Of a stretch of DNA of 64,000 nucleotides, positions 19,475 to 50,808 are shown piece by piece. Positions within the stretch are counted from its first letter, which is position 1. The number at the start of each line of letters is the position of its first letter. The DNA lies in the NCBI RefSeq assembly GCF_003595175.1, contig NZ_CP032419.1:4278001-4342000 (forward strand), given 5' to 3'. Position numbers and translations under genes: made by a program. This DNA comes from Pseudomonas cavernae (GTDB taxonomy: Bacteria; Pseudomonadota; Gammaproteobacteria; Pseudomonadales; Pseudomonadaceae). The notes beneath the pieces were generated by a model. That model did no database searches and was not told the DNA's origin. It saw only the letters and a list, made by a program, of their open reading frames with translations.

Positions 19475-19616
19475 AGAACCTGTCTACGATCTGCTGCGCG
19501 TCGGTCAAGCTGCGTTGAAAACGGCTTCGGAATGCTCATTTACAACGCGTAAACTCCGCTTCCTCAGCCGTTTTCGCCTTGTTTGACTCTAGCTCGCGAG
19601 ATCGTAAACAGGCTCT
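19475..19616 (+). repeat. 142-bp structured repeat, copy A
   Basis: This is one of three elements of exactly 142 bp in the window. The ends are an 18-bp inverted repeat (AGAACCTGTCTACGATCT; opposite end reads AGAGCCTGTTTACGATCT, 16 of 18 matching). A middle stem is AAAACGGCT/AGCCGTTTT, and the tip is AATGCTCATTTAC...GTAAA. The right-hand end supplies the last base of the TGA stop of the LON-domain gene on the reverse strand. See copies at 21992-22133 and 50667-50808. Confidence 0.85.
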
Positions 19617-20206
19617 CAGGCGTGCATTTGGCCCTGCAGCTGGTCGAGCAGACGCTGGATCAGCACCAGCTGTTGCTGTGGCTCATCGAGCTGCAGCAAC
19701 TCCAGCTTCTGCGTCAGCGGGAACGGCAGCAGATAGGCCAGCTGGTTGGCCAACGCCTGCTGGCTGGCCACCACCCCGCCCATGCCCAGCTCGGCGACCA
19801 TCGGGTGCTCGGCCAGCGCCGCCAGCAGGGCGGCGAGATCGGCCTGCTCGGCGAGCAATGGCAGCGCCGCGGACTCGTCCAGCCAGTCGACCTCGGCCAC
19901 GGTCAGCTGATCGCGCTGCACTATGGCACTGCCGATCCGGAAGCGCCGACCGCCCTCGACGCGAATCCCCAGCAGGCCATTGGGACGCTGCTGCCAGTCG
20001 CGGATCAGCGCCTCACAGCCGATGGCGGCGAAGCGTTCGGCGGCCTCGCCGACCTCGTCACCCTCGAGGATGCCGACCACGCCAAAGCTGCTGCCCTGCT
20101 TCAGGCAGCGGCCGAGCATGTCCAGATAGCGCGCCTCGAACAGTTGTAGATCGAGGATGCAACCGGGAAACAGCACGGTCTTCAGCGGAAACAGTGGCAG
20201 CTGCAT
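19616..20206 (-). CDS. LON peptidase substrate-binding domain protein
   Basis: A 196-residue stand-alone LON N-terminal domain (MQLPLFPLKTVLFPGCILDL, FEARYLDMLGRCLKQG, FGVVGILEGDEVG), without the AAA or protease parts of Lon. Such proteins are common in bacteria; the role is not settled and may be peptide or protein binding. The stop codon is directly followed by the 142-bp repeat. It lies 33 bp downstream of lrgB on the same strand. Confidence 0.88.
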   Translation of the reverse strand: MQLPLFPLKTVLFPGCILDLQLFEARYLDMLGRCLKQGSSFGVVGILEGDEVGEAAERFAAIGCEALIRDWQQRPNGLLGIRVEGGRRFRIGSAIVQRDQLTVAEVDWLDESAALPLLAEQADLAALLAALAEHPMVAELGMGGVVASQQALANQLAYLLPFPLTQKLELLQLDEPQQQLVLIQRLLDQLQGQMHA

Positions 20207-20239
20207 TACAACCCCTTGCTCAACCAGTCTTATCCAAGC

Positions 20240-20956
20240 TTATACGATCAGCGCCACCGCCAGCGGCAACAGCACCGCCGTAGCCACGCCCATCAAGCTC
20301 ATGCCGAGGGCGGCGAAGGCGCCGCACTCCTCGCCCTCCTGCAAGGCGCGCGAGGTGCCCACCGCATGCGCGGTGATGCCCAGCGCCAGGCCTTGGGCCG
20401 CTGGGTGATGCACGCCGATCCGGCGCAGCAGTTCGGGGCCGCAGATCGCGCCGATCACCCCGGTGATCAGCACGAACACCGCCGCCAGGGCGGCGATGCC
20501 GCCGATCTGGCTGGCCACCAGCATGGCGATCGGCGAGGTCACCGATTTCGGCGCCAGGCTCATCAGCATCAGCTGTTCGGCGCCGAACAGCCAGGCCAGC
20601 AGCACGCCAAGCACGGTGGCCACCAGGCCGCCGATCAGCAGGGTCAGCAGGGTCGGCCAGAACAGCTGGCGGATGCGCTTGAGGTTAAGGAACAGCGGCA
20701 CCGCCAGCGCCACCGTGGCCGGGCCGAGGAACACCGTGAGCACTTCGGCGCTCTGGCGGTACTCGCTGTAGTCCAGGCCGCAGGCGAGCAGCACGGCGAT
20801 CACCAGCAGCATTGCCACCAGTACCGGCTGGAGGAACACCCAGCGGGTCTTCTCATAGCCGGTCAGGGCCAACTGGTAGGCGCCGAGGGTGATGCCGAAG
20901 CCGAACAGCGGATGGTGGATCAGCGCCTGCCAGGCGCCGTGCCAGTCGAGACTCAT
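20240..20956 (-). CDS. lrgB: LrgB/CidB family membrane protein
   Basis: A 238-residue protein with seven or so membrane segments and the family motif FLGPATVALAVPLF plus PKSVTSPIAM and GITAHAVGTSRALQ. LrgB-type proteins pair with LrgA and are linked to control of murein hydrolase activity, cell lysis or export of small metabolites. The ATG overlaps the lrgA stop as ATGA, so the two subunits are translationally coupled. Confidence 0.88.
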   Translation of the reverse strand: MSLDWHGAWQALIHHPLFGFGITLGAYQLALTGYEKTRWVFLQPVLVAMLLVIAVLLACGLDYSEYRQSAEVLTVFLGPATVALAVPLFLNLKRIRQLFWPTLLTLLIGGLVATVLGVLLAWLFGAEQLMLMSLAPKSVTSPIAMLVASQIGGIAALAAVFVLITGVIGAICGPELLRRIGVHHPAAQGLALGITAHAVGTSRALQEGEECGAFAALGMSLMGVATAVLLPLAVALIV

Positions 20957-21315
20957 GGCTGCCCCCGGCGCCGCGCCTGGCGGTCGATCAGCTTCTGCAT
21001 CAACCAGCCAACGAACAGCAGCGCCAGCAGCAGCGACAACACCAGCGAGCCGGCCACCGCCCAGAAATCCGCGGCGATATCGCGCGCATAGACCATCACC
21101 CCGACTGCCGCCGGCACCAGCAGCAGCGGCAGGTAGCGCAGCAGGCTGGTGGACGCCGCCGCCAGCGGCTCACTGACTTCGCCGCGCAGCATCAGGGTCG
21201 CCAGCAGCAGCAGTAGGCCGATGATCGGGCCCGGCAACATGGGCAGGAACAACACATTGATCGCCGTGCCGAGCAATTGGCACAGCACCAGCCAGGTCAG
21301 GCCGCGTAGCAGCAT
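20953..21315 (-). CDS. lrgA: LrgA/CidA family holin-like protein
   Basis: A 120-residue protein with four membrane segments (LLRGLTWLVLCQLLGTAINV, LPGPIIGLLLLLATLML, YLPLLLVPAAVGVM, LVLSLLLALLFVGWLM). The LPGPIIG motif is typical of the LrgA/CidA holin-like family. I choose the ATG at 21315, which has GGAGA 7 nt upstream; an in-frame ATG 13 codons earlier has no good ribosome site. It forms an operon with lrgB. Confidence 0.86.
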   Translation of the reverse strand: MLLRGLTWLVLCQLLGTAINVLFLPMLPGPIIGLLLLLATLMLRGEVSEPLAAASTSLLRYLPLLLVPAAVGVMVYARDIAADFWAVAGSLVLSLLLALLFVGWLMQKLIDRQARRRGQP

Positions 21316-21536
21316 GGGAAATCTCCGAGGCAAACGGTCGAGGGCCTTGGGCATTGGCAAACCGACAGCGGCGAGCTCAGCCTCGCCGCGGCGGCCATTA
21401 TAAGCATGCTAAGCAGCCACCTATACCTAGCCATTCGCCGCAGCCATGCTGGCTTGACCCAAGGTTCGGCGCATGGTGATCTAGCCGTGATTCGGCTCCA
21501 CGCCAAGAACAATACCTCGCCCCTCAAGGAGGCTCT

Positions 21537-21992
21537 ATGCCGTTCGTACCCGTCGCAGAACTGAAGAACTACATTGGCAAGGACCTCGGCCATTCCGACT
21601 GGCTGACCATCGACCAAGAGCGCATCAACCAGTTCGCCGAATGCACCGGCGACCACCAGTTCATCCACGTCGATCCGGAAAAAGCCAAGAAGACCCCATT
21701 CGGCACCACCATCGCCCACGGTTTCCTGTCGTTGTCGCTGATTCCCAAGCTCAGCGAAGGCCTGTTTCTTGCGCCGGAAGGCCTGAAAATGGGCGTCAAC
21801 TACGGTCTGGACAGCGTGCGTTTCATCCAGCCGGTGCCGGTCAACTCGCGCGTACGCCTGGCCATCACCGTCCTCGACGTGACCGAGAAGAACCCCGGCC
21901 AGTGGCTGCTCAAGTCGCGCTGCACCCTGGAGATCGAAGGTCAGGCCAAGCCGGCCTATATCGCCGAAAGCCTGGCCCTCTGCTTCGTCTAA
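21537..21992 (+). CDS. MaoC-family (R)-specific enoyl-CoA hydratase
   Basis: A 151-residue single hot-dog protein with the hydratase-2 motif CTGDHQFIHVDPEKA (catalytic Asp39 and His44) and FGTTIAHGFLSLSL. Such enzymes hydrate trans-2-enoyl-CoA to (R)-3-hydroxyacyl-CoA, often linking beta-oxidation to polyhydroxyalkanoate or lipid precursors. A clear AAGGAGG site precedes the ATG. The final A of its TAA stop is the first base of the 142-bp repeat copy B. Confidence 0.9.
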   Translation: MPFVPVAELKNYIGKDLGHSDWLTIDQERINQFAECTGDHQFIHVDPEKAKKTPFGTTIAHGFLSLSLIPKLSEGLFLAPEGLKMGVNYGLDSVRFIQPVPVNSRVRLAITVLDVTEKNPGQWLLKSRCTLEIEGQAKPAYIAESLALCFV

Positions 21993-22133
21993 GAGCCTGT
22001 TTACGATCTGCTACGCGTCGGCCATACGGCGTTGAAATCGGGCTCAGAATGCTCATTTACAACGCGTAAACTGCGCTTCTTCGCCCGATTTCGCCTTGTC
22101 TGGCTCTAGCTCGCGAGATCGTAAACAGGCTCT
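21992..22133 (+). repeat. 142-bp structured repeat, copy B
   Basis: The terminal inverted repeat is perfect here (AGAGCCTGTTTACGATCT, 18 of 18). The middle stem is AAATCGGGC/GCCCGATTT, different from copy A but still fully paired. The tip AATGCTCATTTACAACGCGT is identical to copy A. The element starts on the last base of the preceding gene's TAA stop codon. Confidence 0.87.
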
Positions 22134-22248
22134 AAGCCCGCGTTGCACCCCCGGGGCGCCGCCGGCGCCCCGTTTCCGCCTGATCGTCCCTCACGAAAAC
22201 CCGTGTTTGCGGCATACTCCCCCGGATGCCACGACTTGGACGTCCGCC

Positions 22249-23964
22249 ATGTACCGCCTGCTTGCCCCCCTCAGCCTCGCCCTGCTGCTCGCCGCCTGCG
22301 GCGAAGGCGAACCGCTGCTACCGCCGAATGCCATATTGCCCGATGGCGGCCGCTATCGTGGCGAGCTGGTCGACGGCCTGCTGCAGGGCCAGGGCCGCCT
22401 CGACTATGCCAACGGCAGCTGGTACGCCGGGCAGTTCAAGGACGGCCAACTGGAGGGCCCCGGGCAATGGCGGGGACCGAACGGCGAACGCTATCTCGGC
22501 GACTTCCACCTCGGTCTGTTCGACGGCCAGGGCAAGCTCAGCTACCGCGACGGCACCACTTACGAAGGCGGCTTCAAGCTGGCGCAGATGCACGGCGAAG
22601 GCACTCTCAGCCAGGGCGGCCTGCGCTATCACGGCGAGTTCAAGCGTGACCAGTACAACGGCCTGGGCAAGCTCGAACTGGCCGACGGCAGCAGCTTCCA
22701 GGGCCAATTCAGCGATGGTCAGCCAAACGGCGCCGGGGTACGCCTCGACAGCGACGGCGGGCAGTTCAGCGGCACCTTCAGCCAGGGTCGGCTGAACGGC
22801 CAGGGCAGCTACCAGAGCAGCGCCGGCGATCACTACAGCGGCCAGTTCCGCAACGACCAGTTCGACGGCAAGGGCCGCTACGTCAGCGCCGACGGCGACG
22901 CCTGGCTCGGCCAGTTCAAGAACGGCGCGCTGAACGGCAAGGGCGAATTTCGCGGCGCCGACGACAGCCACTACGAGGGCGACTTCCGCGACTGGCGCTA
23001 TCACGGCGAAGGCCGCCTGCGCCTGGCCGACGGCAGCGTCTACCAGGGCCACTTCGCCCATGGCGCCTACAGCGGCACCGGCACCCTGACCCAAGCCGAC
23101 GGCAGCCTGCAGGGCGGCAGTTGGCTCGATGGTCAACGCCTCCGCGACGAGCGCGGCCGCCTGCTGGCCGATCCGCTGGAGGTCGGCCTGCTGCAACAGG
23201 GGCCGTTGCTCGACCAGGCCATCGCCGCCATTCCCGCCTCCACGCCGGCCGTCGAGCTGTACAGCCTGACCCTCGCCGGCGACGGCACGCAGAGCGTGTT
23301 CCTGCGCGAGGCCGACTATGTCAGCCAGCTGCTGCGCCAGCGTTTCGGCGCCTTCGGCCAGATCAGCCTGGCCAACCACCGCGACCACTTCAGCGACCGC
23401 CCGCTGGCCACCCGCGAAAGCCTGACCCGTGCGGTGCGCGCCCTGGCCGAACGCAGCGGCGCGGAGGATTTGTTCTTCCTCTACCTGACCAGCCATGGTT
23501 CGCGCGACCACGAACTCGACCTCGCTCAGCCGCGTCTGCAACTGGCCAGCCTGCCGGCCGACGAACTGGCGGTACTGCTGCAACCGCTGAAAGACCGTTA
23601 CAAGGTGGTGGTGATTTCCGCCTGCTACTCCGGCGGCTTCATTCCGCCACTGAAGGACGACAAGACCCTGGTGATCACCGCCGCGCGCGCCGACCGGGTG
23701 TCGTTCGGCTGCTCGGAAGAGAACGACTTCACCTACTTCGGCCGCGCCCTGTTCGCCGATGCGCTGAACGAGACCGACGACCTCGAGCGCGCCTTCGGCC
23801 GCGCCAAGGAACTGGTTGCCGAACGCGAGCGCGCCGACGGCTTCGAGCCCTCGGAGCCGCAGATCTGGGCGCCGCCGGCGGTGCTCAAGCACTGGCAGCA
23901 ACTGCGCGAAAGCCAGGCGCGCAAGGCGATGAACGCGCAGGCCAGCGAGAAAAAAGCGCAATAG
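22249..23964 (+). CDS. MORN-repeat lipoprotein with C-terminal C13 (legumain-like) peptidase domain
   Basis: A 571-residue protein. It has a lipobox LLAAC (Cys17), then about eleven MORN-type repeats of 23 residues (pattern Y-x-G-x-F-x-x-G-x-x-x-G-x-G; about residues 35-300). A caspase-like/C13 peptidase domain follows, with the catalytic His416 in [11 protein letters not shown] and Cys459 in [12 protein letters not shown]. It is probably anchored at the outer membrane facing the periplasm. The natural substrate is unknown. The ribosome site is weak (TTGGACG), and the start is fixed mainly by the lipoprotein signal. Confidence 0.82.
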
Positions 23965-24002
23965 CCCCTAAACTCAAGGTGTATCCGCCCAGAGACCAGT
24001 CC

Positions 24003-24644
24003 ATGTATCTGACGCCGCAACATATCCTGCTCGCCGGCGCCACCGGCCTCACCGGCGAACACCTGCTCGATCGCCTGCTCAACGAGCCGACGGTGCGCCG
24101 CGTGCTGGCGCCGAGCCGCCGGCCGCTGGCCGAGCACAAGCACCTGGACAACCCGCAGGGCGAGCTGCTGGACCTGCTGCCGCAGCTCAGCGGGCCGATC
24201 GACACCGCGTTCTGCTGCCTCGGCACCACCATCAAGCAGGCCGGCTCGCAAGAGGCCTTCCGCGGCGTCGACCACGATCTGGTCCTGGCCTTTGCCGAGC
24301 GTGCCCGCGCCCTCGGCGCGCGGCACTTCCTGGTGATCAGCGCACTCGGCGCCGATGCGAAATCGGCGGTGTTCTACAACCGCGTCAAGGGCGAGCTGGA
24401 AGCCTCGCTGCGCGCGATGGGCTGGCCGCAACTGACCATCGCCCGGCCCTCGCTGCTGCTCGGCGAGCGCAACGAGACGCGCCTCGGCGAGCAGTTGGCC
24501 GCCCCGCTGGCGCGCCTGATCCCCGGCAAATACCGCGGCATCCGCGCCTGCACCCTGGCCCACGCGCTCTGGCGCCTGGCCCTGGAGGAACAGGACGGCG
24601 TGCGGGTGGTCGAGTCGGATGAGTTGCGCAAGCTGGGGCGCTAA
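24003..24644 (+). CDS. NAD(P)-binding Rossmann protein, HTATIP2-like
   Basis: A 213-residue atypical short-chain dehydrogenase with an N-terminal nucleotide-binding motif [26 protein letters not shown], and [13 protein letters not shown], followed by YNRVKGELE in place of the YxxxK catalytic pair. It resembles the HTATIP2/TIP30-like NAD(P)H-binding group. Substrate unknown. It follows the MORN protein by 38 bp and may be co-transcribed with it. Confidence 0.78.
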
Positions 24645-24676
24645 ACTCACCGCCCCTTTACCGCGAAGAAGCCTTC

Positions 24677-24973
24677 ATGAGCCAATCCAGCAGCCTGTTA
24701 GACGCCCTTGCCTCCACCGACATGCTGGAGATCGACGGGCTCTACGCCTGGCACTTCGAGCTGCATAGCGACACCCCTGAGCAGCTGCTCAGCATCGAGG
24801 TCATGGACGGCAGCAGCCGCCGGCTGTGGCGCTTCACTCAGGCCGAGGTGCAGGCCGCCCGCTACGAGGCCGCCAGCGACAGTTGGCACTTGGCCAAGGG
24901 CGATGCCAGCCACCGGCTGAAATGTCTGGGCGCGTTGGTGGCCGACAATGCCGACGTCGGCGAAGACGAATAG
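24677..24973 (+). CDS. Conserved Pseudomonas protein, 98 aa (possibly DUF5629)
   Basis: A small acidic soluble protein (MSQSSSLLDALASTDMLEID, then GLYAWHFELHSD, EVMDGSSRRLWRFTQAEVQA). It has no signal peptide, membrane segment or catalytic motif that I can name. I believe it belongs to a short Pseudomonas-restricted family (DUF5629), but this is from memory. It lies 32 bp downstream of the Rossmann protein on the same strand, suggesting one transcript. Confidence 0.65.
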   Translation: MSQSSSLLDALASTDMLEIDGLYAWHFELHSDTPEQLLSIEVMDGSSRRLWRFTQAEVQAARYEAASDSWHLAKGDASHRLKCLGALVADNADVGEDE

Positions 24974-24991
24974 ACCGGCACCGGCGCCGGC

Positions 24992-25300
24992 TCAGTAACC
25001 GCCAGTCACGCCCAGATTGACGCCCAGCACGGCGGCCAGCGAGAACGGCAACAGCAGGGTGTCCAGCAAGGCACTGGCCGGCAGATCGATGCCGGCGTAC
25101 TCCGGTGCCTCGGCGCCGAAGCGGTCCAGCGGACAGCAGCCGCCATTCAGCGTGTACCAGTCCAGGCGCGTGCCGGCATACACCAGCGGCGCGCCTGGCT
25201 TGGCCGCATCGAGGGTGCGCACCGTGGCGCAACCGGAGAGCAGCAAGGCGCAAATCACTAGCGCCACGTTTTTGTAAGGGCCCGGAGCTGCTTCAGTCAT
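24992..25300 (-). CDS. YceK/YidQ-like small lipoprotein
   Basis: A 102-residue lipoprotein with lipobox LLLSGC and the family features PLVYAGTRLDWYTLN, DLPASALLDTLLLPFSL. YceK/YidQ (DUF1375) proteins are small outer-membrane lipoproteins without an assigned function. The start at 25300 overlaps the end of ubiX by 8 bp; a GTG two codons earlier is an alternative. It is convergent with the gene ending at 24973. Confidence 0.72.
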   Translation of the reverse strand: MTEAAPGPYKNVALVICALLLSGCATVRTLDAAKPGAPLVYAGTRLDWYTLNGGCCPLDRFGAEAPEYAGIDLPASALLDTLLLPFSLAAVLGVNLGVTGGY

Positions 25301-25925
25301 CGCCACTGACCTGATGGTGTTCGCCCCAGCGCGGCAGCATGTCCTGCGGGATGTCGAGCAGGTTGAGGATACGCGCGACGACGAAGTCGATCAGGTCGTC
25401 GATGGTCTGCGGCTGGTGATAGAAGCCCGGCGAGGCCGGCACTATCACCGCGCCGAGGTTGGAGAGCTTGAGCATGTTCTCCAGATGGATGCTCGAATAC
25501 GGCGCCTCGCGCGGCACCAGGATCAACTGACGGCGCTCCTTCAGGGTCACGTCGGCGGCGCGTTCGATCAGGTTGTTGCAGGCGCCACTGGCGATTGCCG
25601 ACAGCGTGCCGGTCGAACACGGCACCACCACCATCGCCCCCGGCGCGCTGGAGCCGGAGGCCGGCGGCGCCATCCAGTCTTCCTTGCCGTAGACGCGGAT
25701 CTGCCCCGGCGCGGCGCCGGTGTATTCGCTGAGGAACGCCTGCATCGCCTGCGGCTTGCTCGGCAAGGTGACGTCGGTTTCGGTGGCCATCACCAGCTGC
25801 GCCGCCTTGGAGATCAGGAAGTGCACCTCGCGCTCCTCCTGGACCAGGCAGTCGAGCAGGCGCAGGCCGTACTGGGCGCCGGAGGCGCCGGTCATGGCCA
25901 AGGTAATGCGTTCCGGCCCGCTCAT
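25293..25925 (-). CDS. ubiX: Flavin prenyltransferase UbiX
   Basis: UbiX joins dimethylallyl phosphate to FMN to make prenylated FMN, the cofactor of UbiD decarboxylases in ubiquinone synthesis. The 210-residue protein has the flavoprotein motif LAMTGASGAQYGLRLLDCL, SGSSAPGAMVVVPCSTGTLSAIASG and LVPREAPYSSIHLENMLKLS. It lies between mpl and the small lipoprotein gene; the same mpl-ubiX neighbourhood occurs in P. aeruginosa. Confidence 0.95.
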   Translation of the reverse strand: MSGPERITLAMTGASGAQYGLRLLDCLVQEEREVHFLISKAAQLVMATETDVTLPSKPQAMQAFLSEYTGAAPGQIRVYGKEDWMAPPASGSSAPGAMVVVPCSTGTLSAIASGACNNLIERAADVTLKERRQLILVPREAPYSSIHLENMLKLSNLGAVIVPASPGFYHQPQTIDDLIDFVVARILNLLDIPQDMLPRWGEHHQVSGDD

Positions 25926-25934
25926 AAATTCACC

Positions 25935-26057
25935 CTCAATGCTGTTGCGCTTGGTTATGCCGCGTTGAAAACCTGCTCAAAATGCTCATTTACTAAAGTA
26001 AATTCCGCTTTCTCGCAGGTTTTCGCCTTGCCTAACCTGCGCTCACGACGCATTGAG
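25935..26057 (+). repeat. Structured repeat, shorter divergent copy D (123 bp)
   Basis: It shares the tip AATGCTCATTTAC...GTAAA and the flanks CGTTG and CGCCTTG with the 142-bp elements. It has a different middle stem, AAAACCTGC/GCAGGTTTT, that is still perfectly paired, and different ends (CTCAATGC/GCATTGAG). It lies 10 bp upstream of the ubiX start codon, so it is in the 5' region of a gene rather than at a stop codon. Confidence 0.75.
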
Positions 26058-26093
26058 AGCGAATTTCCGCTGCTTATTTGATCAGGTCGAACC

Positions 26094-26172
26094 GTAGGAT
26101 GGGTTGAGGAGCGCAGCACCGATACCCATCGAGCCGATGCCGATGGGTATCGCTTCGCTCAACCCATCCTAC
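26094..26172. repeat. REP-type palindrome pair (GTAGGATGGGTTGAG family)
   Basis: Inverted copies of GTAGGATGGGTTGAG-(gcgaag/agcgcag)-CGATACCCATCG face each other across a short spacer. It starts with GTAG and ends with CTAC. It lies 4 bp beyond the mpl stop codon. The GTAG foot of the hairpin is the tetranucleotide recognised by REP-associated (RAYT) transposases in known systems; no such transposase gene is in this window. Confidence 0.8.
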
Positions 26173-26176
26173 AGCT

Positions 26177-27526: not shown

Positions 27527-27604
27527 GTATGACCTCAAAGAACGGACCGCGTCAGCCCGGAAAAATCTCGCCGCAGGTTAGCACAGCGGGGGCCGGCGCC
27601 TTAG

Positions 27605-27737
27605 CCCCCTCTCCCCCGGCCCCTCTCCCATAAATGGGCGTGGGCTTCGCGCCCATTTGTAGCCTGTAGGATGGGTTGAGCGCAGCGATACCCATCCTAC
27701 GAATCAGGCCGTCGCCCGGATGCAATCCGGGGAGGCA
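27605..27737. repeat. Cluster of three short palindromic repeats upstream of mpl
   Basis: In order: a CCCCTCTCCC...CCCATAAATGGG unit (27605-27655), a GTAGGATGGGTTGAGCGC half-unit closing with CCCATCCTAC (27666-27700), and half of a CCCGGATGCAATCCGGGG unit (27713-27731). All three families recur elsewhere in the window. The cluster fills the gap between mpl and the LysR-type gene. Confidence 0.7.
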
Positions 27738-27740
27738 GGC

Positions 27741-28607: not shown

Positions 28608-28625
28608 GGCGAATCCTCTGGACTC

Positions 28626-28643
28626 ATAAGTCAGACTTGTTAT
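28626..28643. promoter_or_regulatory. Candidate LysR operator between the regulator and phnW
   Basis: Within an A/T-rich stretch unusual for this region, a perfect dyad AAGTC-A-GACTT (28628-28638) is nested with ATAA (28626-28629) and TTAT (28640-28643). LysR proteins usually bind partly symmetric A/T-rich sites in the divergent gap. A loose sigma-70-like TTGAAA starts at 28644. No binding data; this is a pattern-based guess. Confidence 0.4.
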
Positions 28644-28740
28644 TGAAATACTATAAAACGATTTTTTTTATTAGTTCGGAATTGTTTTGATCACCTCCAA
28701 CGCGGCCCCACCGCCCATTACAAGAATGCTGGAGACGATC

Positions 28741-39566: not shown

Positions 39567-39635
39567 AAGGCTATCGCGCCACATCCCATTTGCACGGGCT
39601 GCTTTTGCCCAGTTTCTAGCCCGCGAGGTCAGCCC

Positions 39636-40796: not shown

Positions 40797-40811
40797 CCCA
40801 CCCCGCAGAGA

Positions 40812-40830: not shown

Positions 40831-40955
40831 GGCGCTGCACGCGGGCGGCTTCTGCTATGCCAATAAGACCTCCCGCACTCCGCACCATCCGCCGGCCCGC
40901 GCCCAGGCTGTGTAAGCCTGGCCCGCGCGCCGCCATCCGACCAGAGGGGCCCGTC

Positions 40956-42476: not shown

Positions 42477-42490
42477 ACCACGGCGCTCTT

Positions 42491-42561
42491 GTAGGTTGGC
42501 GTTGAGCGCAGCGATACCCAACAGCTGCGGCAGGGGTATCGCTGCGCTCAACCCATCCTAC
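42491..42561. repeat. REP-type palindrome pair after dehydrogenase copy 2
   Basis: The same unit as at 34127-34197, at the same distance from the stop codon of the homologous gene and with only a few base differences (for example CAGGGGTATCGCTGCG against CATGGGTATCGCAGCG). It lies between the convergent dehydrogenase and guaD genes. Confidence 0.8.
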
Positions 42562-42597
42562 GGATCAACCGATGCAGGCCGCGCCGGATGGCCTGGA

Positions 42598-43938: not shown

Positions 43939-44002
43939 GCTCGGTTCCTTTCGAGAGGGTTCGGGACGGCAGGAGCCCGAAGGCTCCCGCGTTCGGGAAG
44001 CG

Positions 44003-45250
44003 TTACGGCTGCTTCGGATACGACTCGCGCATGATCAGCGCCAGCACCAGGGCGATGCCCAGGGCGATCATGATCGGCTCAGCGGCGTACTCGGCCAGCG
44101 CCAGGGTGTGCTCCGGCAGGCCGGCGGCCTGGCCCGACACCACCCGGGCGCCCGGCGCGGCGATCATGATGCCGCCGGCGATGAACGCCAGGCCGTTGAC
44201 GAAGGCCGCCGAGGTGCCGATCAACTGCGGCGGCACCACGTCGGCGGCCGAGCTGAAGGTCAGCATGTGCGCGGCGTTGGCGACGCCGAAGAAGAAGCAC
44301 ATGGCCATGGCCGCCGGAATGGCGATGCCAGGGACGTACAGCAGTGCGCCGGCGCAGGCCAACTGCACCACGCAGCCGACGATGATCAGCGGCTTGCGCT
44401 TCTTCATCTTGTCCGACCAGGCCGGCAGCACCAGGCAGCCGGCGGCCAGGCCCAGCCACAGCAGCGAGGAGCTGAACGCGGCGGTTTCCGGGCTGGCGCC
44501 GAGCACCAGCAGCAGCTTCGGCGCCCACACCACGCCGCCGGCGAGCAGGCTGCCGAACAGCGCCGAGCAGATCAGCGCGCTGATCCACACGTGGGGTAGC
44601 TTGGCCACGTCGACCAGCGCCGAGATCACCGAGCCGATGAAGCTGCCGAAGCCCTGCTCGCTGCGTTGCACCGGCTCCGGGTTGCGCAGGAAGAGGAAGG
44701 CCAGCACGGTCAGGCCGATGCCGAACACGCCGACATAGTAGAACAGCGTGCGCCAATCCATCTGCTGCAGGCCCCACTGCAGGGCGTTGACCGAGAAGGC
44801 GGAAGACAGCGAGGCGCAGAACTGCACCAGGCCGAACATCAGGCTGAACTTGGCCATGCCGAACCACTGCCCACCGATGTAGCCGGCGCCGACGAAGCCG
44901 GTGCAGGCGCCGAGGGCCATGACGAACTGCGAGAGCAGCAGCATCGAATAGGAGCTAGCGTTGGCGAAGATGAACACGCCGAGGGTCACCAGCACCACCG
45001 AGGCGGGCAGCACCTTGTGGGCACCGAGGCGGTCGAGCAGCGCGCCGCCGAAGAACTGGCAGATGGCGAACGCCCAGGTGTAGGTGGCGGCGATGGTGGC
45101 CACCTGGGTCACCGTCAGCGACACGCTTTTCTGGATGTCCGGGTTAACGATGGAATAACCGGTCTGCACGCTGAACAGATAAATCACGAAGGCGACGGCG
45201 AGCCCCCACACCCACCATGCCTGCGTCCCACCTAACTTGACTGTACTCAC
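44003..45250 (-). CDS. MFS transporter, OFA (oxalate/formate antiporter)-like
   Basis: A 415-residue protein with 12 membrane segments; the region YTWAFAICQFFGGALLDRLG is the MFS loop-2/3 signature. Overall it resembles OFA-type or organic-anion MFS carriers. The start is a GTG at 45250 with a near-ideal AAGGAG 8 nt upstream. It is the first gene of an operon with guaD, so a purine or a related nitrogen compound is a possible substrate, but the family does not confirm it. Confidence 0.75.
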   Translation of the reverse strand: MSTVKLGGTQAWWVWGLAVAFVIYLFSVQTGYSIVNPDIQKSVSLTVTQVATIAATYTWAFAICQFFGGALLDRLGAHKVLPASVVLVTLGVFIFANASSYSMLLLSQFVMALGACTGFVGAGYIGGQWFGMAKFSLMFGLVQFCASLSSAFSVNALQWGLQQMDWRTLFYYVGVFGIGLTVLAFLFLRNPEPVQRSEQGFGSFIGSVISALVDVAKLPHVWISALICSALFGSLLAGGVVWAPKLLLVLGASPETAAFSSSLLWLGLAAGCLVLPAWSDKMKKRKPLIIVGCVVQLACAGALLYVPGIAIPAAMAMCFFFGVANAAHMLTFSSAADVVPPQLIGTSAAFVNGLAFIAGGIMIAAPGARVVSGQAAGLPEHTLALAEYAAEPIMIALGIALVLALIMRESYPKQP

Positions 45251-45409
45251 TGCCTATCTCCTTGATGGCCTTTGCATTCTTCTTGTGCGCGAACAACCGG
45301 CCGAGGAATTCGGTCCTCCCTGACCGACAGATGGCGCGCAGGCCGCAGATTAGACCAGTTCCACCCTCCGCACAAAGCTGACCAAACGGTCACATCGCTA
45401 CAGCGGCGC

Positions 45410-45443
45410 AAAAAAAAAGCGGCCCCACCAACCGGCGGGCCGC
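45410..45443 (-). terminator. Intrinsic terminator of the thiolase gene
   Basis: On the reverse strand, GCGGCCC and GGGCCGC form a 7-bp stem followed directly by a run of nine T. It lies 63 bp beyond the thiolase stop codon. Confidence 0.85.
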
Positions 45444-45505
45444 CCAAATTCACGGAGTTGCGTACATCGCATGGCCGCGCTGACGGTGCGGCCACCTTGC
45501 TTGGA

Positions 45506-46783
45506 TCACTTTTCCAGGATCGCGGTCACACCCTGGCCGCCGGCGGCGCAGATGGAGATCAGCCCGCGGCCCTGCTGCGCCGCCGCCAACAGCTTGGCCA
45601 GGTTGGCGACGATGCGCCCGCCGGTGGCGGCGAACGGGTGGCCGGCGGCCAGCGAACTGCCCTTGACGTTGAGCTTGGCGCGGTCGATGGCGCCGAGCGG
45701 CGCGGCGAGGCCGAGGCGGCTCTGGCAGTAGTCGGCGTCCTCCCAGGCCTTGAGGGTGCACAGCACCTGGGCGGCGAAGGCTTCGTGGATCTCGTAGTAG
45801 TCGAAGTCCTGCAGGCTCAGGCCGTTGCGCGCCAGCAGCCGCGGCACGGCGTAGGCCGGGGCCATCAGCAGGCCCTCCTGGCCCTTGACGAAGTCCACCG
45901 CCGCCGCCTCACCGTCCCTGAAGTAGGCGAGGATCGGCAGGCCGCGCGCCTTGGCCCACTCCTCGCTGGCCAGCAGCACCAGCGAGGCGCCGTCGGTCAG
46001 CGGCGTCGAATTGGCCGCGGTCAGGGTGCCGCGCGGGCCTTTGTCGAACACCGGCTTGAGGCTGGCGAGCTTGTCCAGGCTGATGTCGGCGCGCAGGTTC
46101 TGGTCGCGGGTCAGGCCGAGGAACGGCGTCAGCAAGTCGTTGTGCCAGCCCTCGGCGTAGGCGGCGGCCAGCTTGACGTGGCTCTCGTAGGCCAGCTGGT
46201 CCTGCGCGTCGCGCGGGATCGCCCAGCGCTGCGCCATCTGCTCGCAATGCTCGCCCATCGACAGCCCGGTACGCGGCTCGCCGTTCTTCGGGATGTGCGG
46301 CAGCAGATGGCGCGGGCGGACCTGCAGCAGCGCCTTGAGCTTGTCCGCCGTGGACTTGCCGCGGTTGGCTTCGAGGAGAATCTTGCGCAGCCCCTCGTTG
46401 ACGCCGATCGGCGCATCCGAGGTGGTATCGACGCCGCCGGCGATGGCGCTGTCGATCTGCCCGAGGGCGATCTTGTTGGCGGTCAGGATCACCGCCTCCA
46501 GGCCGGTGCCGCAGGCCTGCTGGATGTCGTAGGCCGGGGTTTCCGGGGCCAGGCGCGAGCCGAGCACGCATTCGCGGGTCAGGTTGAAGTCCCGCGAGTG
46601 CTTGAGCACCGCGCCCGCCGCCACCTCGCCGATGCGCTCGCCATGCAGCTTGTAGCGCTCCACCAGCCCTTCCAGGGCGGCGGTCAGCATCTCCTGGTTG
46701 CTCGCGGTGGCGTACAGGGTGTTGGAGCGGGCGAAGGGGATGCGGTTGCCGCCGACGATGGCGACCCGGCGCAGTGGGTTCAT
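45506..46783 (-). CDS. Acetyl-CoA C-acetyltransferase (FadI-like thiolase)
   Basis: A 425-residue thiolase. Catalytic residues are Cys91 in IQQACGTGLEAV, the His in EIHEAFAAQVL, the His in AAGHPFAATGGR and the Cys in ISICAAGGQGV. Length and the insert LLQVRPRHLLPHIPKNGEPR fit the FadI/trifunctional-protein beta class. It diverges from a long FabG-type reductase, with a MaoC hydratase nearby. Together these cover thiolysis/condensation, keto-reduction and hydration on acyl-CoA, either beta-oxidation or a reversed elongation route. Confidence 0.92.
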   Translation of the reverse strand: MNPLRRVAIVGGNRIPFARSNTLYATASNQEMLTAALEGLVERYKLHGERIGEVAAGAVLKHSRDFNLTRECVLGSRLAPETPAYDIQQACGTGLEAVILTANKIALGQIDSAIAGGVDTTSDAPIGVNEGLRKILLEANRGKSTADKLKALLQVRPRHLLPHIPKNGEPRTGLSMGEHCEQMAQRWAIPRDAQDQLAYESHVKLAAAYAEGWHNDLLTPFLGLTRDQNLRADISLDKLASLKPVFDKGPRGTLTAANSTPLTDGASLVLLASEEWAKARGLPILAYFRDGEAAAVDFVKGQEGLLMAPAYAVPRLLARNGLSLQDFDYYEIHEAFAAQVLCTLKAWEDADYCQSRLGLAAPLGAIDRAKLNVKGSSLAAGHPFAATGGRIVANLAKLLAAAQQGRGLISICAAGGQGVTAILEK

Positions 46784-47123
46784 GGCGAACTCCTTGCAGG
46801 ATTAGTTGGGTTGGCGGTCAGACTGGATGCTGCCTAAACAAGCTTCATGCGAAACATGCCCTGTAGGAGCGAATTCATTCGCGAACAGCTCCGCTCCGAG
46901 CGGCCCCTATCGCGAATGAATTCGCTCCTACTCAAAGCTAGTCATGGGTAGCTTTCAGACAGAGCCTAGCGTGCATCGACACCGGCGCATTGGCCGACTC
47001 GCCGCAATCCCGCTCAACCTCGGTCAATGCATGAAACGGTCCGCTGCGTAGAGTGGTCAACACTGCAACCCTTACCGGCCGAACGCCTACACTCTTCGAG
47101 CCTTATAGTCTGGAGTCCATTCC
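46784..47123. other. Divergent promoter region between thiolase and FabG genes
   Basis: This is a 340-bp gap. The part next to the thiolase gene holds a REP palindrome (46863-46931). The rest (about 46940-47123) has no gene and should hold the FabG promoter and possibly the binding site of the AraC-type regulator at 48645. GGAG at 47112-47115 is the FabG ribosome site. Confidence 0.5.
46863..46931. repeat. REP-type palindrome pair (GTAGGAGCGAATTCATTCGC family)
   Basis: GTAGGAGCGAATTCATTCGC faces a fully complementary GCGAATGAATTCGCTCCTAC across a spacer that itself contains GCTCCG/CGGAGC-type pairing. Compare 48559-48628, where CATTCGC/GCGAATG has become TATTCGC/GCGAATA on both arms. Confidence 0.85.
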
Positions 47124-48479
47124 ATGTCCGACCGCTACCTCAGCTTCGCCAACTCCAACGCCGGCCGCCGCCTGCTCGGCGCCCTCGGCCTGCCGGCGCC
47201 GCTGCGCCTGGAACGCTGGCGGGCCGGGCGGGTGCGGCCGGTGGACGGCGCCCTGCTGATTGGCGGCGACGGCCCCCTGGCAGCAGCGGCCAACGCCTGT
47301 CTGCTACGCCTCACCGACCAGGCGTTCGCCGCCGCGGACGGCCAGTTCGGCCTGCCGCGCTGGAGCGCCGAGGCCGGGCCGAAGCTCAAGGCGCTGGTGT
47401 TCGACGCCAGCGCCATCGCCAGCGTCGAGCAGCTGATCGCCCTGCGCGACTTCTTCCAGCCGGCGCTCAAGAGTCTCGACCAGTGCCCGCATGTGGTGAT
47501 CCTCGGCCGCGCCCCGGAAAGCCTCAAGGACCCACTCGCTGCCAGCGCCCAGCGCGCCCTGGAAGGCTTCAGCCGCTCGCTGGGCAAGGAACTCCGCCGC
47601 GGCGGCACGGTGCAGCTGCTGTACATCGGCAAGGGTGGCGAGGAACAGCTGGAAGGTGCGCTGCGCTTCTTCCTCTCGCCCAAGAGCGCCTACGTGTCCG
47701 GCCAGGTCGTGCGCCTCGGCGCCTATAGCGCGCAAGTCGCCGACTGGACGCGACCGCTGGCCGGGCAGAAGGCGCTGGTCACCGGCGCCAGCCGCGGCAT
47801 CGGCGCGGCCATCGCCGAAACCCTGGCACGCGACGGCGCCGAGGTGGTGCTGCTCGACGTGCCGGCGGCCAAGGCCGGCCTCGAGGCCCTCGCCGCCAGG
47901 CTCGGCGGCCGCAGCCTGGCATTGGACATCTGCGCCGAAGACGCCGCCGCGCGGCTGATCGAGGCGCTGCCGGATGGCCTCGACATCCTCGTGCACAACG
48001 CCGGCATCACCCGCGACAAGACCCTGGCGAAGATGAGCGACGAGCTGTGGAGTTCGGTGCTGAACGTCAACCTGCGCGCGCCGCAGGTGCTGACCCGCGC
48101 GCTGCTGGACGCCGGCACCCTGCGCGACAACGGCCGCGTGGTGCTGCTCGCCTCGATCAGCGGCATCGCCGGCAACCTGGGCCAGACCAACTACGCGGTG
48201 AGCAAGGCCGGGCTGATCGGTCTGGCGCAGGCCTGGGCGCCAGCGCTGGGCAAGCGCGGCATCAGCCTCAACGCGGTGGCGCCGGGCTTTATCGAAACGC
48301 AAATGACCGCGGCCATTCCCTTCGCCATTCGCGAGGCCGGCCGGCGGATGAACTCCCTGGGCCAGGGCGGCCTGCCGCAAGACGTCGCCGAAACCGTGGC
48401 CTGGCTGGCCCAGCCAGGCTCCGGGGCGATGACCGGCCAGGTGCTGCGGGTCTGCGGGCAGAGTTTGTTGGGGGCGTGA
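47124..48479 (+). CDS. 3-oxoacyl-ACP/CoA reductase, high-molecular-weight FabG (FabG4-like)
   Basis: A 451-residue two-domain SDR protein. Residues 1 to about 205 form a degenerate Rossmann domain lacking a clean cofactor motif. Residues about 210-450 form an active SDR: cofactor motif TGASRGIGAAI, NAG in LVHNAGITRDKTL, catalytic Ser in LLASISGIAG and YAVSK. Such HMW FabG proteins reduce 3-oxoacyl-CoA. It is divergent from the thiolase gene. Confidence 0.9.
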   Translation: MSDRYLSFANSNAGRRLLGALGLPAPLRLERWRAGRVRPVDGALLIGGDGPLAAAANACLLRLTDQAFAAADGQFGLPRWSAEAGPKLKALVFDASAIASVEQLIALRDFFQPALKSLDQCPHVVILGRAPESLKDPLAASAQRALEGFSRSLGKELRRGGTVQLLYIGKGGEEQLEGALRFFLSPKSAYVSGQVVRLGAYSAQVADWTRPLAGQKALVTGASRGIGAAIAETLARDGAEVVLLDVPAAKAGLEALAARLGGRSLALDICAEDAAARLIEALPDGLDILVHNAGITRDKTLAKMSDELWSSVLNVNLRAPQVLTRALLDAGTLRDNGRVVLLASISGIAGNLGQTNYAVSKAGLIGLAQAWAPALGKRGISLNAVAPGFIETQMTAAIPFAIREAGRRMNSLGQGGLPQDVAETVAWLAQPGSGAMTGQVLRVCGQSLLGA

Positions 48480-48481
48480 GC

Positions 48482-48537
48482 GTAGCCCGTCTGCAATCCG
48501 GGGCAACTGTGGTCTTCCCGGATTGCAGACGGGCTAC
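48482..48537. repeat. REP-type palindrome pair (GTAGCCCGTCTGCAATCC)
   Basis: A perfect long dyad: GTAGCCCGTCTGCAATCCGG and CCGGATTGCAGACGGGCTAC. Relative to the sister units at 34214 and 38003, GAT/ATC in the stem is replaced by TCT/AGA on both arms, so pairing is kept. It lies just after the FabG stop codon. Confidence 0.85.
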
Positions 48538-48558
48538 CACTTGTTTCGGTCTTGCCGT

Positions 48559-48628
48559 GTAGGAGCGAATTTATTCGCGATGACGGCAACGCGGAATTGC
48601 CCCGGTTCGCGAATAAATTCGCTCCTAC
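48559..48628. repeat. REP-type palindrome pair (GTAGGAGCGAATTTATTCGC family)
   Basis: GTAGGAGCGAATTTATTCGC and GCGAATAAATTCGCTCCTAC are fully complementary. It lies between the convergent FabG and AraC-type genes and may serve as a transcription end region for both. Confidence 0.85.
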
Positions 48629-48644
48629 AGAGGCATGGGCCAAC

Positions 48645-49646
48645 CTACGCTTCGGCTTTCCCGCGCTTGCGAAACTCAACCGGGGTTTCGCCGACCCAGC
48701 GTTTGAACGCGCGGTAGAAGGTGCTCGGCTCGGAGAAGCCGGTGCGCTCGACTATCACCTCGATGCGCTCGTCGGTCTTCAGCAGCAGGTCCTTGGCCAG
48801 CCGGCAGCGGTAGTCGGTGATCAGGTCGTTGAAGCGCACGCCGGCCACGGCCAGGCGTTCGCGCAGGCGCCGCGGCGGCATGTGCAGGCGGCTGGCGACC
48901 TGCTCGAGGGTGGCGCCGCCGTCCACCAGCAGCTCGGCGATCAGCTCGCGCACCTGGCGCACCAAGTCCAGGCGTTCGACTTCGGCCAGTTGCCGGCGCG
49001 CCAGCGATTCGTGCATGCGCAACAGTTCCGGCGCGGCATGCCGCGAGGCCTTGCTCAGCACGGAGGCATCGAAGACCAGGGCGTAGCGCCCGGCGCCCAG
49101 CTCGGCCGGGCAGCCGTAGACCGCGGCATAGCGCTCCGCCGTGGCGCCGCTGTGGTGCATGAACTGCACGGCCCGTGGCTTGAATTCGCCTTCGGTCAAC
49201 GCGCCGAACAGGCGGATCACCGCGCCGGCGAGCATCTCCGGGAAGTGCCGCGGCACGCCCTCGTTCAACCCCAGCAGCAGAATGGCCTGCTCGCCGGCAA
49301 CTTCGAGGCGCGCATTCAGGGTATCGGAGAGCAGGCGCACGTAGCGCAGGGCATGGCGCAGGCCGTCACCGAAGGTTTCGCTGGAGAGGAACAGGTATTC
49401 CAGCAGCAGGCCGTGGAACGCCGGCAAATGTCCGGCCAGATGCAGGCCTACATGCTCTTCGCCGCATTCTTCGGCGGCGGCCTTCCAGAACTGGGCCTGG
49501 GCGGCATGGGGAAAGCGCCCGGCGGGCAAGCCACCTGGCGGCAGGCCAACACGCACCAATACGCGGTCCGGATCGGTTCCGCTGGCACGCAAGGCGTCGA
49601 TCACCGGGCGCATCAGCGCCACATCATCGGTCAGATCACGCAGCAT
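48645..49646 (-). CDS. AraC-family transcriptional regulator
   Basis: A 333-residue regulator with an N-terminal arabinose-binding-like domain (about 20-200; DALRASGTDPDRVLVRVGLP) and a C-terminal AraC DNA-binding domain (VASRLHMPPRRLRERLAVAG; then VIVERTGFSEPSTFYRAFKR, WVGETPVEFRK). The order thiolase, FabG, AraC, MaoC is conserved in pseudomonads, so it likely controls this acyl-CoA set, perhaps in response to fatty-acid compounds. The effector is not visible from sequence. Confidence 0.88.
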   Translation of the reverse strand: MLRDLTDDVALMRPVIDALRASGTDPDRVLVRVGLPPGGLPAGRFPHAAQAQFWKAAAEECGEEHVGLHLAGHLPAFHGLLLEYLFLSSETFGDGLRHALRYVRLLSDTLNARLEVAGEQAILLLGLNEGVPRHFPEMLAGAVIRLFGALTEGEFKPRAVQFMHHSGATAERYAAVYGCPAELGAGRYALVFDASVLSKASRHAAPELLRMHESLARRQLAEVERLDLVRQVRELIAELLVDGGATLEQVASRLHMPPRRLRERLAVAGVRFNDLITDYRCRLAKDLLLKTDERIEVIVERTGFSEPSTFYRAFKRWVGETPVEFRKRGKAEA

Positions 49647-49815
49647 TTCTTGAAGTTCTTATTAGCCGTGGGCGCGGCCATCTTAGGCAGTTTTGCCGCT
49701 TTGGCTCAAGGCATACGGGGTGCAATTGACCACTCCGCCGCCACTGTGCGCCGCCCAGCCAATGCACGCCGGCGCCGGGGCGCTAAGCTGCTGGCAATTG
49801 CCCAAGGAGATTCCC

Positions 49816-50667
49816 ATGGCCACCGACTGGCACGACCTGCCTGCCCCGACCGCCCTGCCTGGCCTGTTCCTGCGTGCGCTGCTGCGCCGCGGGGTGCAGG
49901 GCAAGAGCCTGCCGGACTTCGGCCTGCGCTGCCCGGTCAGCGTCGAGCCTCAGCACCTGGCACGTTACCGCCAGCTGTGCGGCGCCAGCGACGATGGCCT
50001 GCTGCCGCCGGCCTATCCGCACCTGCTGGCGTTCCCCTTGCAGATGCAGCTGCTGACCGACAAAGGCTTTCCGTTCCCGCTGCTCGGCCTGGTGCATCTG
50101 GAAAACCGCATCCGCGTGCTGCGCCCGCTCGGCGGTCTCGGTCCGTTCCAGGTCGGCGTGCGCCTGGACCACCTGCAGGCGCATGCCAAGGGCGCGGTGT
50201 TCAGCCTGATCACCAGCCTCGAGGACCAGCTCGGCCTGCTCTGGGAGGGCGACAGCCACTTCCTCTGCCGCGCCGTGCGTCTCGACGGCACGCCGGCCGA
50301 GCACGCCGAGCCGGCGCCGCTGCCGCTCAGCGCCATCGCCGACTGGTCGGCACCCGCCGACATCGGCCGCCGCTATGCGCGGGTGGCCGGCGACTACAAC
50401 CCGATCCACCTGTCTGCCGCCAGCGCTCGCCTGTTCGGCTTCCCGCGCGCCATCGCCCACGGCCTGTGGAACAAGGGCCGCGCCCTCGCCGCCCTCGGCG
50501 AGCACCTGCCGGCGGCCGGTTACGCAGTGGCGGTGCGTTTCCACAAGCCGCTGCTGCTGCCCAGCCATGTCGGCCTGCTGGCCAGCGCCGCGGGCGAGTC
50601 CGGGCAGTTCCAGCTACAGGGTGAAGCGGACGTGCTGCATATGAGCGGCAGCTGGCAGCCGCTCTAA
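49816..50667 (+). CDS. MaoC-like dehydratase with double hot-dog architecture
   Basis: A 283-residue protein with an N-terminal non-catalytic hot-dog part and a C-terminal MaoC domain bearing the hydratase motif RVAGDYNPIHLSAASA and FPRAIAHGLWNKGRAL. AAGGAGA precedes the ATG by 5 nt. It is the third enzyme of the thiolase/FabG/MaoC set, adding or removing water at the 3-hydroxyacyl-CoA stage. The last base of its TAA stop is the first base of repeat copy C. Confidence 0.88.
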   Translation: MATDWHDLPAPTALPGLFLRALLRRGVQGKSLPDFGLRCPVSVEPQHLARYRQLCGASDDGLLPPAYPHLLAFPLQMQLLTDKGFPFPLLGLVHLENRIRVLRPLGGLGPFQVGVRLDHLQAHAKGAVFSLITSLEDQLGLLWEGDSHFLCRAVRLDGTPAEHAEPAPLPLSAIADWSAPADIGRRYARVAGDYNPIHLSAASARLFGFPRAIAHGLWNKGRALAALGEHLPAAGYAVAVRFHKPLLLPSHVGLLASAAGESGQFQLQGEADVLHMSGSWQPL

Positions 50668-50808
50668 GAACCTGTCTCGGATCTCGCGAGCTAGAGTCAA
50701 ACAAGGCAAAAACGGCTGAGGAAGCGGAGTTTACGAGTTGTAAATGAGCATTCCGAAGCCGTTTTTAACGCCGTTTGGCCGACGCGCAGCAGATCCGATA
50801 CAGGTTCT
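50667..50808 (-). repeat. 142-bp structured repeat, copy C (inverted)
   Basis: The same element as copies A and B, in the opposite orientation. End repeats are AGAACCTGTCTCGGATCT and, at the other end, AGAACCTGTATCGGATCT read inwards (17 of 18 matching). Both carry a TCGG change where A and B have TACG. The middle stem is AAAACGGCT/AGCCGTTTT and the tip is AATGCTCATTTACAACTCGT. It starts on the last base of a TAA stop codon. Confidence 0.87.

Follow-up and report, generated by a model that had tools for sequence, protein, structure and literature searches.

The repeats in the window, that is, in the whole 64-kb stretch of Pseudomonas cavernae DNA analysed here, belong to a family of non-autonomous DNA transposons (MITEs), with terminal inverted repeats, a target duplication, multiple copies and an empty site. 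Judged by sequence, they are also members of a hairpin family that is spread over several bacterial phyla. Taken as a whole, the data are likely best explained by a MITE family that is moved in trans, whose arms are kept complementary at the DNA level and whose apex would act as a recognition site. Insertion at stop codons, an apex shared across lineages with several end types and a probable kinship with ERIC go beyond the initial sequence-only reading of this DNA.

A covariance model built on 46 copies, of which 45 come from other genomes and one lies elsewhere in the P. cavernae genome, matches exactly the four copies that had been claimed in the window (83–97 bits), and a pattern for the hairpin tip gives three window matches against 0.00 expected by chance, with the shorter relative not caught by it. 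All three full-length copies exist, but the one at 50667-50808 is inverted relative to the other two, and the element measures 140 bp, the claimed length of exactly 142 bp having taken in a single base of the TNA duplication at either end. The proposed 18-bp terminal inverted repeat pairs at 16/18, 18/18 and 17/18 positions in the three copies. The middle stem, which was said to differ between copies, does so in copy 2 and in the shorter relative but is identical in copies 1 and 3, so that the contrast within the window depends on the former two. The shorter relative, originally placed at 25935-26057, is present but truly extends over about 25927-26065 and starts one base upstream of the start codon of the minus-strand ORF 25293-25925. 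The window features are:

19476..19615, plus strand (strand of the apex GCTCATTTAC): copy 1, mobile hairpin of 140 bp, ends GAACCTGT..ACAGGCTC
19534..19559, plus strand: conserved apex of copy 1
19473..19475, no strand: TCA target duplication, left side of copy 1
19616..19618, minus strand: TCA target duplication, right side of copy 1, equal to the TGA stop (minus strand) of ORF 19616-20206
21993..22132, plus strand: copy 2, mobile hairpin of 140 bp with a differing middle stem, site empty in relatives
22051..22076, plus strand: conserved apex of copy 2
21990..21992, plus strand: TAA target duplication, left side of copy 2, equal to the stop codon of ORF 21537-21992
22133..22135, no strand: TAA target duplication, right side of copy 2
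50668..50807, minus strand (apex strand): copy 3, mobile hairpin of 140 bp
50724..50749, minus strand: conserved apex of copy 3
50665..50667, plus strand: TAA target duplication, left side of copy 3, equal to the stop codon of ORF 49693-50667
50808..50810, no strand: TAA target duplication, right side of copy 3
25927..26065, plus strand: divergent shorter relative with other ends (AATTC..GAATT), target duplication not seen

The suggestion of a non-autonomous mobile element is confirmed by target duplications and by an empty site. Specifically, 82 of the 115 P. cavernae copies read carry the main ends GARCCTGT..ACAGGYTC, and 64 of these 82 have identical 3-bp flanks, as read by an end finder that favoured identical flanks wherever several end positions fitted. 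TNA makes up 63 of the 64 (shifted controls, 0–2), the targets resemble C-TNA-G, and identical flanks are absent from the remaining 18 of the 82. At the copy 2 site, the joined flanks are spanned end to end in at least seven genomes among the matches listed, and in four alignments this site lacks the element. In a second copy set, the ends found for 35/59 copies were not flanked by a TNA or TA duplication, and 4/59 gave no ends. Matches of at least 300 bases to P. cavernae stretches were found at 4 of 18 loci of one other genome (G027) and at 2 of 20 loci of a second (G001); the one such locus that was inspected (L360) represents a same-site case.

The P. cavernae genome holds 147 exact core (apex) motifs, and of 41 BLAST matches within it 40 span 136 or more of the 142 bases, just 40 of 215 candidates having been scored. 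The apex, GCTCATTTAC-N-GTAAACTSCGC, occurs in 55 of 369 sampled Gammaproteobacteria as well as in Bacteroidota and further lineages, and 26 of 35 same-genus genomes contain only 0–2 copies. It is almost invariant and asymmetric, and it is joined by conserved junctions (a TCA/CTS internal loop, GCGTT and GCCTTG), with apex, internal loops and junctions all conserved across phyla. No description of this apex was recognised in the open-licence papers searched; a text search for short strings hit 341 of them, and the 30 listed look unrelated.

Insertions into this genome and its relatives are concentrated at stop codons. Of the 64 insertions verified by their duplication, 39 have doubled the stop codon of a gene (genes as called by a home-made caller), and the same is true of 10 of 16 held-out insertions, nine of them from P. 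cavernae and seven from two relatives. The odds ratio against other non-coding TNA sites is 10–21 and still about 11 after flank matching to C-TNA-G. Loci from a wider taxon sampling added four usable cases, one at a stop codon and three intergenic. Of 49 cases, 34 have the apex on the same strand as the gene hit (p 0.009). The open-licence papers searched yielded no account of a MITE targeted to stop codons. Any TNA triplet reads as a stop codon on one of the two strands, so that its duplication leaves the gene intact; insertion at TNA would thus double the stop codon, spare the gene and turn the element into 3'-untranslated sequence. Such exact insertion would offer a way of multiplying without gene damage.

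Selection by itself might produce this bias if harmful insertions were lost and the transposase preferred nothing beyond C-TNA-G, an account to which we assign slightly under an even chance. The rarity of insertions within coding sequence (6/64, versus 2777 control sites) is what it predicts, as is the harmlessness of duplicating a triplet that is a stop on some strand. It does not readily explain why positions 1–40 nt after stops hold three insertions versus 39 at the stops themselves (controls, 97 and 68; Fisher p 5e-10), nor why the enrichment persists with matched flanks. Moreover, in one relative the same stop codon carries an element in reversed orientation and with another stem, a pattern expected from repeated targeting (or from inversion).

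In the preferred explanation of a MITE moved in trans, a DDE transposase from an IS5-like or similar insertion sequence (IS) would act on the GARCCTGT or alternative ends. The ends of 8 of the 115 P. cavernae copies match IS elements of the genus with PF13340 transposases, sharing the terminal TAGGTTCTGTACGAAAA and a TA target, with TA on both sides in six of these eight copies. These IS5-type elements, which we take to be the IS427 group, differ from the repeats in being about 900 bp long and encoding a transposase. The ends of one further copy match a resident PF01609 IS. The PF01609 profile, which was also searched in 23 chosen genomes, has three matches in the P. cavernae genome, and the PF13340 profile, run over 59 genomes of the genus, has none there. 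The main GARCCTGT/TNA ends were found on none of the IS elements examined, neither in 3 + 30 + 30 IS loci nor in a pair scan of all retrieved loci, ends having been sought in those transposase loci that were returned; a query of the element ends alone yielded nothing useful, plasmids gave 14 records with partial matches, and phages gave no match. Ends shared with an IS, which formed part of the alternative raised at the outset, were found for the minority end types (8 + 1 copies) and not, in these loci, for the main type. Within the genome, one body of 140–141 bp bears several end types, and minority-end bodies without extra modules are likewise 140–141 bp. A constant body with differing ends points to switching between transposases, which the lineage would apparently have swapped over time.

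The compensating changes reported for the stems are supported by covariation, and their reach extends to the terminal arms. Copy 1 folds with a z-score of -6.2 as RNA and -3.7 as DNA, with none of 200 shuffles as good. The P. cavernae alignment (92 of 126 loci, 103 rows, 92 of them distinct; no pairing cut, rows located and aligned by means of the other-genome model) is 95.8% paired versus 84.8% when shuffled and has 212 double-change cells versus 57.5, with 0/500 shuffles reaching it on all five measures. A lack of covariation among many copies, which the sequence-only reading had named as evidence against itself, is thus not what is seen. In other genomes, the values are 94.0% versus 76.0% and 196 versus 56.2 double-change cells, with 9/500 shuffles attaining the observed value for pairs changed at both positions. 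This set leans to pairing, because rows had first to show 10 or more of 14 stem pairs (passed by 94 of 143 distinct copies from outside the first set) and 25 of 71 diverse preselected sequences were removed by eye for extra modules or odd registers, leaving 46, one of them from P. cavernae. The arms are complementary almost throughout, and paired changes also affect the terminal arms with their terminal repeats.

What maintains this pairing is a separate matter. Mismatches of the G-U and A-C types number 19:23 and 27:23 in the two sets, or 46:46 pooled. The claim that the folded form is selected as RNA or single-stranded DNA is not established, and this balance also fits arms kept alike as DNA; covariation in a long palindrome is thus, on its own, no proof of a functional RNA. 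Two earlier counts were set aside: one (own copies 11 G-U to 14 A-C, others 35:55) for its pairing cut and fixed register, the other (179 G-U to 28 A-C, counted on an RNAalifold structure) for G-U columns that are the same in almost every copy. The arms may be held complementary by a hairpin or cruciform constraint, by the copying of one arm from the other, or both, and the fixed apex with its junctions would form a putative recognition site for a factor.

Template switching between the arms of a palindrome can carry a mutation over to the opposite arm. Paired changes could accordingly arise without selection, with variants spread by amplification, and we rate this possibility as serious, if somewhat below even. 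The balanced mismatches, the paired changes in the terminal arms and the long near-palindrome all suit such a process, which leaves unexplained the conserved apex, loops and junctions across phyla as well as the persistence of bulges. Template switching could also explain the stems while selection holds the apex.

It is unlikely that selection maintains the repeats as a structured RNA (a 3'-UTR processing or stabilising element, a terminator or an sRNA), for although insertion at the stop codon puts the hairpin into the 3' UTR, fold and covariation are strong, unpaired apex letters are conserved, apex and gene strands tend to agree, and excerpts of PMC2229807 and PMC10969869 report that Yersinia ERIC RNA exposes an RNase E site, the element is found in both orientations, the arms with the terminal repeats covary as well, and the G-U excess is absent, whereas 25 tRNAs of the same loci give 10 G-U to 2 A-C (a small sample from a tRNA finder that favours pairs). 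A scan of the window at Rfam gathering thresholds returned tRNA-Sec only and nothing on the repeat copies. A permissive Rfam scan gave a weak sX9 match (22.5 bits, E 0.028), which was taken as chance because it is absent from six other loci scanned, and a mir-154 match in another locus (L152) sits on a different hairpin.

ERIC repeats are widely used in strain typing. The ERIC/IRU/RU-1 repeats of Enterobacteriaceae and Vibrionaceae share with the window repeats the hairpin apex TCACTTAC-N-GTAAGCTC, which also occurs in clear family members of other genomes, and this makes ERIC a probable branch of one common superfamily. The first pair of the apex is T-A here in place of C-G in ERIC, and 15 of 20 loci that score 62–91 bits have the C-G form. 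In the one ERIC copy tested (L286), the covariance model matched over 21 nt only, not over the whole 127 bp. Excerpts of a 2007 review (PMC2229807) also describe short terminal repeats, target duplication and many intergenic copies for ERIC, but a length of 127 bp and 5'TA3' termini, as opposed to 140 bp and TNA here; of the end types found in P. cavernae, the main one has TNA and the second TA in 6/8 copies. The reviewed passages leave open how such small repeats transpose, a question made testable by an apex common to ERIC, Pseudomonas and Bacteroidota repeats. More tentatively, and with rather less than an even chance, these repeats might form a class of mobile DNA hairpins that spans phyla, includes ERIC and is defined by its apex and not by its ends, changes transposases by rewriting both arms, uses the apex for putative factor recognition and actively targets stop codons.

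Other known repeats were compared by their published descriptions. Correia/NEMIS, RUP and other bacterial MITEs, as outlined in parts of PMC2229807 and PMC10969869, are likewise short and transposase-free, with terminal inverted repeats, target duplication and a stem-loop, but the termini given for Correia and RUP are TA. Parts of PMC10969869 place a Coxiella MITE mostly within 3' untranslated regions. The R0, R2 and R178 repeats of Pseudomonas fluorescens resemble the family in being high-copy, intergenic and biased to convergent gene pairs, and are set apart, by description, by lengths of 89, 110 and 101 bp, unlike 140 bp (excerpts of PMC2718517). REP/REPIN sequences are similarly palindromic, extragenic and of high copy number, with conserved and variable parts (extracts of PMC3116915 and PMC3733652), but consist of palindromic units of 20–40 bp (PMC3733652, in part) versus 140 bp with a TNA duplication in the repeats described here.

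The repeats of the window belong to a real and widespread family of mobile DNA hairpins. All four copies reported by the sequence-only reading are present, and they are the sole matches in the window (n=4) to R1, a covariance model built from an alignment of 46 copies, termed A1:

19476-19615, + strand, copy 1
21993-22132, + strand, copy 2
50668-50807, - strand, copy 3
25927-26065, + strand, shorter divergent relative

The unit measures 140 bp, with ends GARCCTGT... and arms that are complementary almost end to end. The junctions read GCGTT and GCCTTG, and the middle stem varies; beyond a TC/TC internal loop and a short stem comes the apex, where TTTAC/GTAAA pairing closes over TCA and CTS, both unpaired. 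The chromosome (4.95 Mb, with the window at 4,278,001-4,342,000) holds 147 exact matches to the apex pattern GCTCATTTACN{3,9}GTAAAYTSCGC, 83 forward and 64 reverse, and none to the reversed control pattern; 135 of the 147 were read as copies, in sets of 115 and 20. Longer variants with extra modules make up 32 of the first 115 (e.g., at G000:C1:90810 and G000:C1:133731 of this chromosome), a 5' module occurring in 29, a 3' module in 19 and both in 14; some stretches of these modules look complementary and would form an alternative fold around the apex. A lone right end of 23 bp lies at G000:C1:1921302-1921324, 69 bp away from a full copy.

The compensating base changes that were initially proposed for the middle stem are confirmed and extend to the terminal arms, in which columns 11/131 and 12/130 change as pairs (A-T to C-G, C-G to G-C). 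In A1, whose rows were preselected for pairing and of which 45 come from other genomes, double-sided changes occur in 15 of 23 pairs, pairing holds in 94.0% of cells (76.0% after shuffling), and the covariation score falls from 0.488 to at most 0.110 once the partner is slid; of 500 shuffles, none attains any of four measures, and 9 attain the fifth, the number of doubly changed pairs. The own-genome alignment A2, whose rows were found with R1, gives 95.8% against 84.8% paired cells and 212 against 57.5 double-change cells over 92 distinct rows, with none of the five measures attained in 500 shuffles. The apex stem itself varies in other loci, 20 of which carry CTTAC/GTAAG, 15 of these scoring 62-91 bits with R1.

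The hairpin may have a role as RNA. RNA stems tolerate G-U more than A-C mismatches, while on duplex DNA both arise symmetrically. On the apex strand, G-U and A-C number 19 and 23 in A1 and 27 and 23 in A2, versus 10 and 2 in 25 tRNAs from the loci examined, a small set drawn with a finder that favours pairs. Strand-specific wobble is thus absent, which removes the main argument for an RNA role. In quasipalindromes, template switching corrects one arm from the other, and both such correction and constraint on a DNA hairpin are compatible with the balanced mismatches.

The proposal of a non-autonomous mobile element is likewise borne out, and by its behaviour the hairpin is a MITE. Specifically, main-type GARCCTGT ends occur in 82 of the first 115 own copies, and 64 of the 82 have identical 3-bp flanks (TAA 22, TGA 17, TTA 14, TCA 10, TTT 1), as against 0-2 when one side is shifted, the end-finding script having chosen identical flanks wherever several end positions were possible. 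The 64 comprise 46 copies of 139-141 bp and 18 of 167-256 bp with extra modules, and they share the target consensus C-TNA-G, with the C present in 51 and the G in 50. The joined flanks of copy 2 are spanned end to end in at least seven genomes (G507, G443, G028, G583, G537, G555 and G449); some part of them is matched in 181 of 199 genomes, own included, many on the coding side only, and in four alignments the site is empty. In genome G027 (left flank 90% identical), an element with a different middle stem lies reversed at the stop codon that copy 2 occupies, its outer triplets being TGA and TAG.

Other copies of the first set carry other ends, by an assignment that tolerates 1-2 mismatches: a second type like GGTTCTGTACG in 8 of 115 (TA on both sides in 6; 141 bp in 4, the rest 198-255 bp), CAGGCYGTTGAAAA in 5 and, flanked by CCGT on both sides, CAGGCCGTGTGAAAA in 1, these last six all of 140 bp; 19 are unassigned. 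The second type resembles the ends (TAGGTTCTGTACGAAAAG and similar) of insertion sequences of the genus with a PF13340 transposase (loci L311, L312, L315, L322, L332, L333), and the CCAGGCTGTGTGAAAA ends of a resident PF01609 insertion sequence (three copies, L307, L308, L309) are shared by the single CAGGCCGTGTGAAAA copy, G000:C1:520244. We take these insertion sequences to be IS5-family (IS427 group) and IS1182-family, respectively. Because one hairpin body bears the ends of several transposases, the best reading is a single lineage that changes its ends.

A TNA triplet always reads as a stop codon in one of the two directions (TAA and TGA forward, TTA and TCA backwards), and all three 140-bp window copies sit exactly at one. 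A simple gene caller, which accepts open frames from 240 bases upward that have a high third-position GC, places the 64 verified insertions at an exact stop codon (39), 1-40 nt (3), 41-100 nt (2) or 101-400 nt (6) past one, elsewhere between genes (8) or in coding sequence (6); the corresponding counts for control TNA sites no more than 1 kb away are 68, 97, 155, 220, 230 and 2777. The odds ratio for stop codons versus all other non-coding TNA sites is 21, and by C..G flank matches 11.3 for two (p 3e-7), 11.5 for one (p 8e-7) and 9.6 for none (p 0.15). In the second set (20 own elements, 18 from G027, 21 from genome G001), 16 have a TNA duplication, with 10 at stop codons (own 4/9, G027 1/1, G001 5/6), 5 at other non-coding sites and 1 in coding sequence, against 22 stop and 112 other non-coding controls (odds ratio 10, p 8e-5). 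Four G001 elements have a TA duplication (2 stop codon, 1 intergenic, 1 coding), 35 elements of the set have ends but neither duplication, and in 4 no ends were found; a small earlier check of named loci gave 1 stop codon in 4. Apex and hit gene share the same strand in 34 of 49 cases (27/39 and 7/10; p 0.009). The transposase may seek stop codons, or insertions elsewhere may be lost; that so few lie just downstream of stops favours some targeting.

Among sampled relatives 30 of 57 genomes carry the apex, and among sampled Gammaproteobacteria 55 of 369 (47 of 272 genera), own genome counted in each; the reversed control occurs in neither sample. A scan of named genomes yields at least 119 stretches; among the 80 stretches listed, 16 are Bacteroidota (Alistipes, Prevotellaceae, Pedobacter and others), Pseudomonas accounts for many of the records, and Nitrosomonadales, Mariprofundales and one Desulfobacterales MAG also appear, MAG labels being fallible. 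With L185 left out as part of A1, the other 15 Bacteroidota loci (L204 preselected yet outside A1) score 36-57 bits with R1 and the apex alone about 32, so the better ones have support beyond the apex. As far as the literature searched shows, the cross-phylum apex, the end switching and the stop-codon insertion of this family are new.

ERIC repeats have the same apex, and an ERIC query matches 5376 of 5426 E. coli genomes. In the one copy examined (L286), the local R1 match, at 14.3 bits with an E of 0.008 for a 1.3-kb sequence, is confined to the apex, TCACTTAC-TTAT-GTAAGCTCC, with none outside it. The pattern TCACTTACN{3,6}GTAAGCTC occurs in 9 of 369 genomes, six with the main apex as well, and loci from the three others (L287, L290, L295) match R1 positions 1-78 at 26.5, 25.7 and 20.9 bits. 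ERIC is quite probably a branch of the same superfamily, but the present element is not claimed to be an ERIC.

A near-identical apex-bearing stretch in several Pseudomonas genomes with one or few copies (L132, L133, L136, L235) may be an old fixed copy. Tandem hairpins, two or three close together, occur in a Bacteroidaceae MAG (L154 1400-1541), a Mariprofundales MAG (L162 746-1089) and a Pseudomonadota MAG (L166 3759-3955). The window also holds a second repeat with arms GTAGGATGGGTTGA and TCAACCCATCCTAC, whose two full hairpins (26094-26172 and 50835-50910) lie next to mobile-hairpin repeats, with further arms at 27666, 34184, 37934, 42548, 54811 and 61256, and a tRNA-Sec gene at 55575-55666 on the - strand (77.8 bits).
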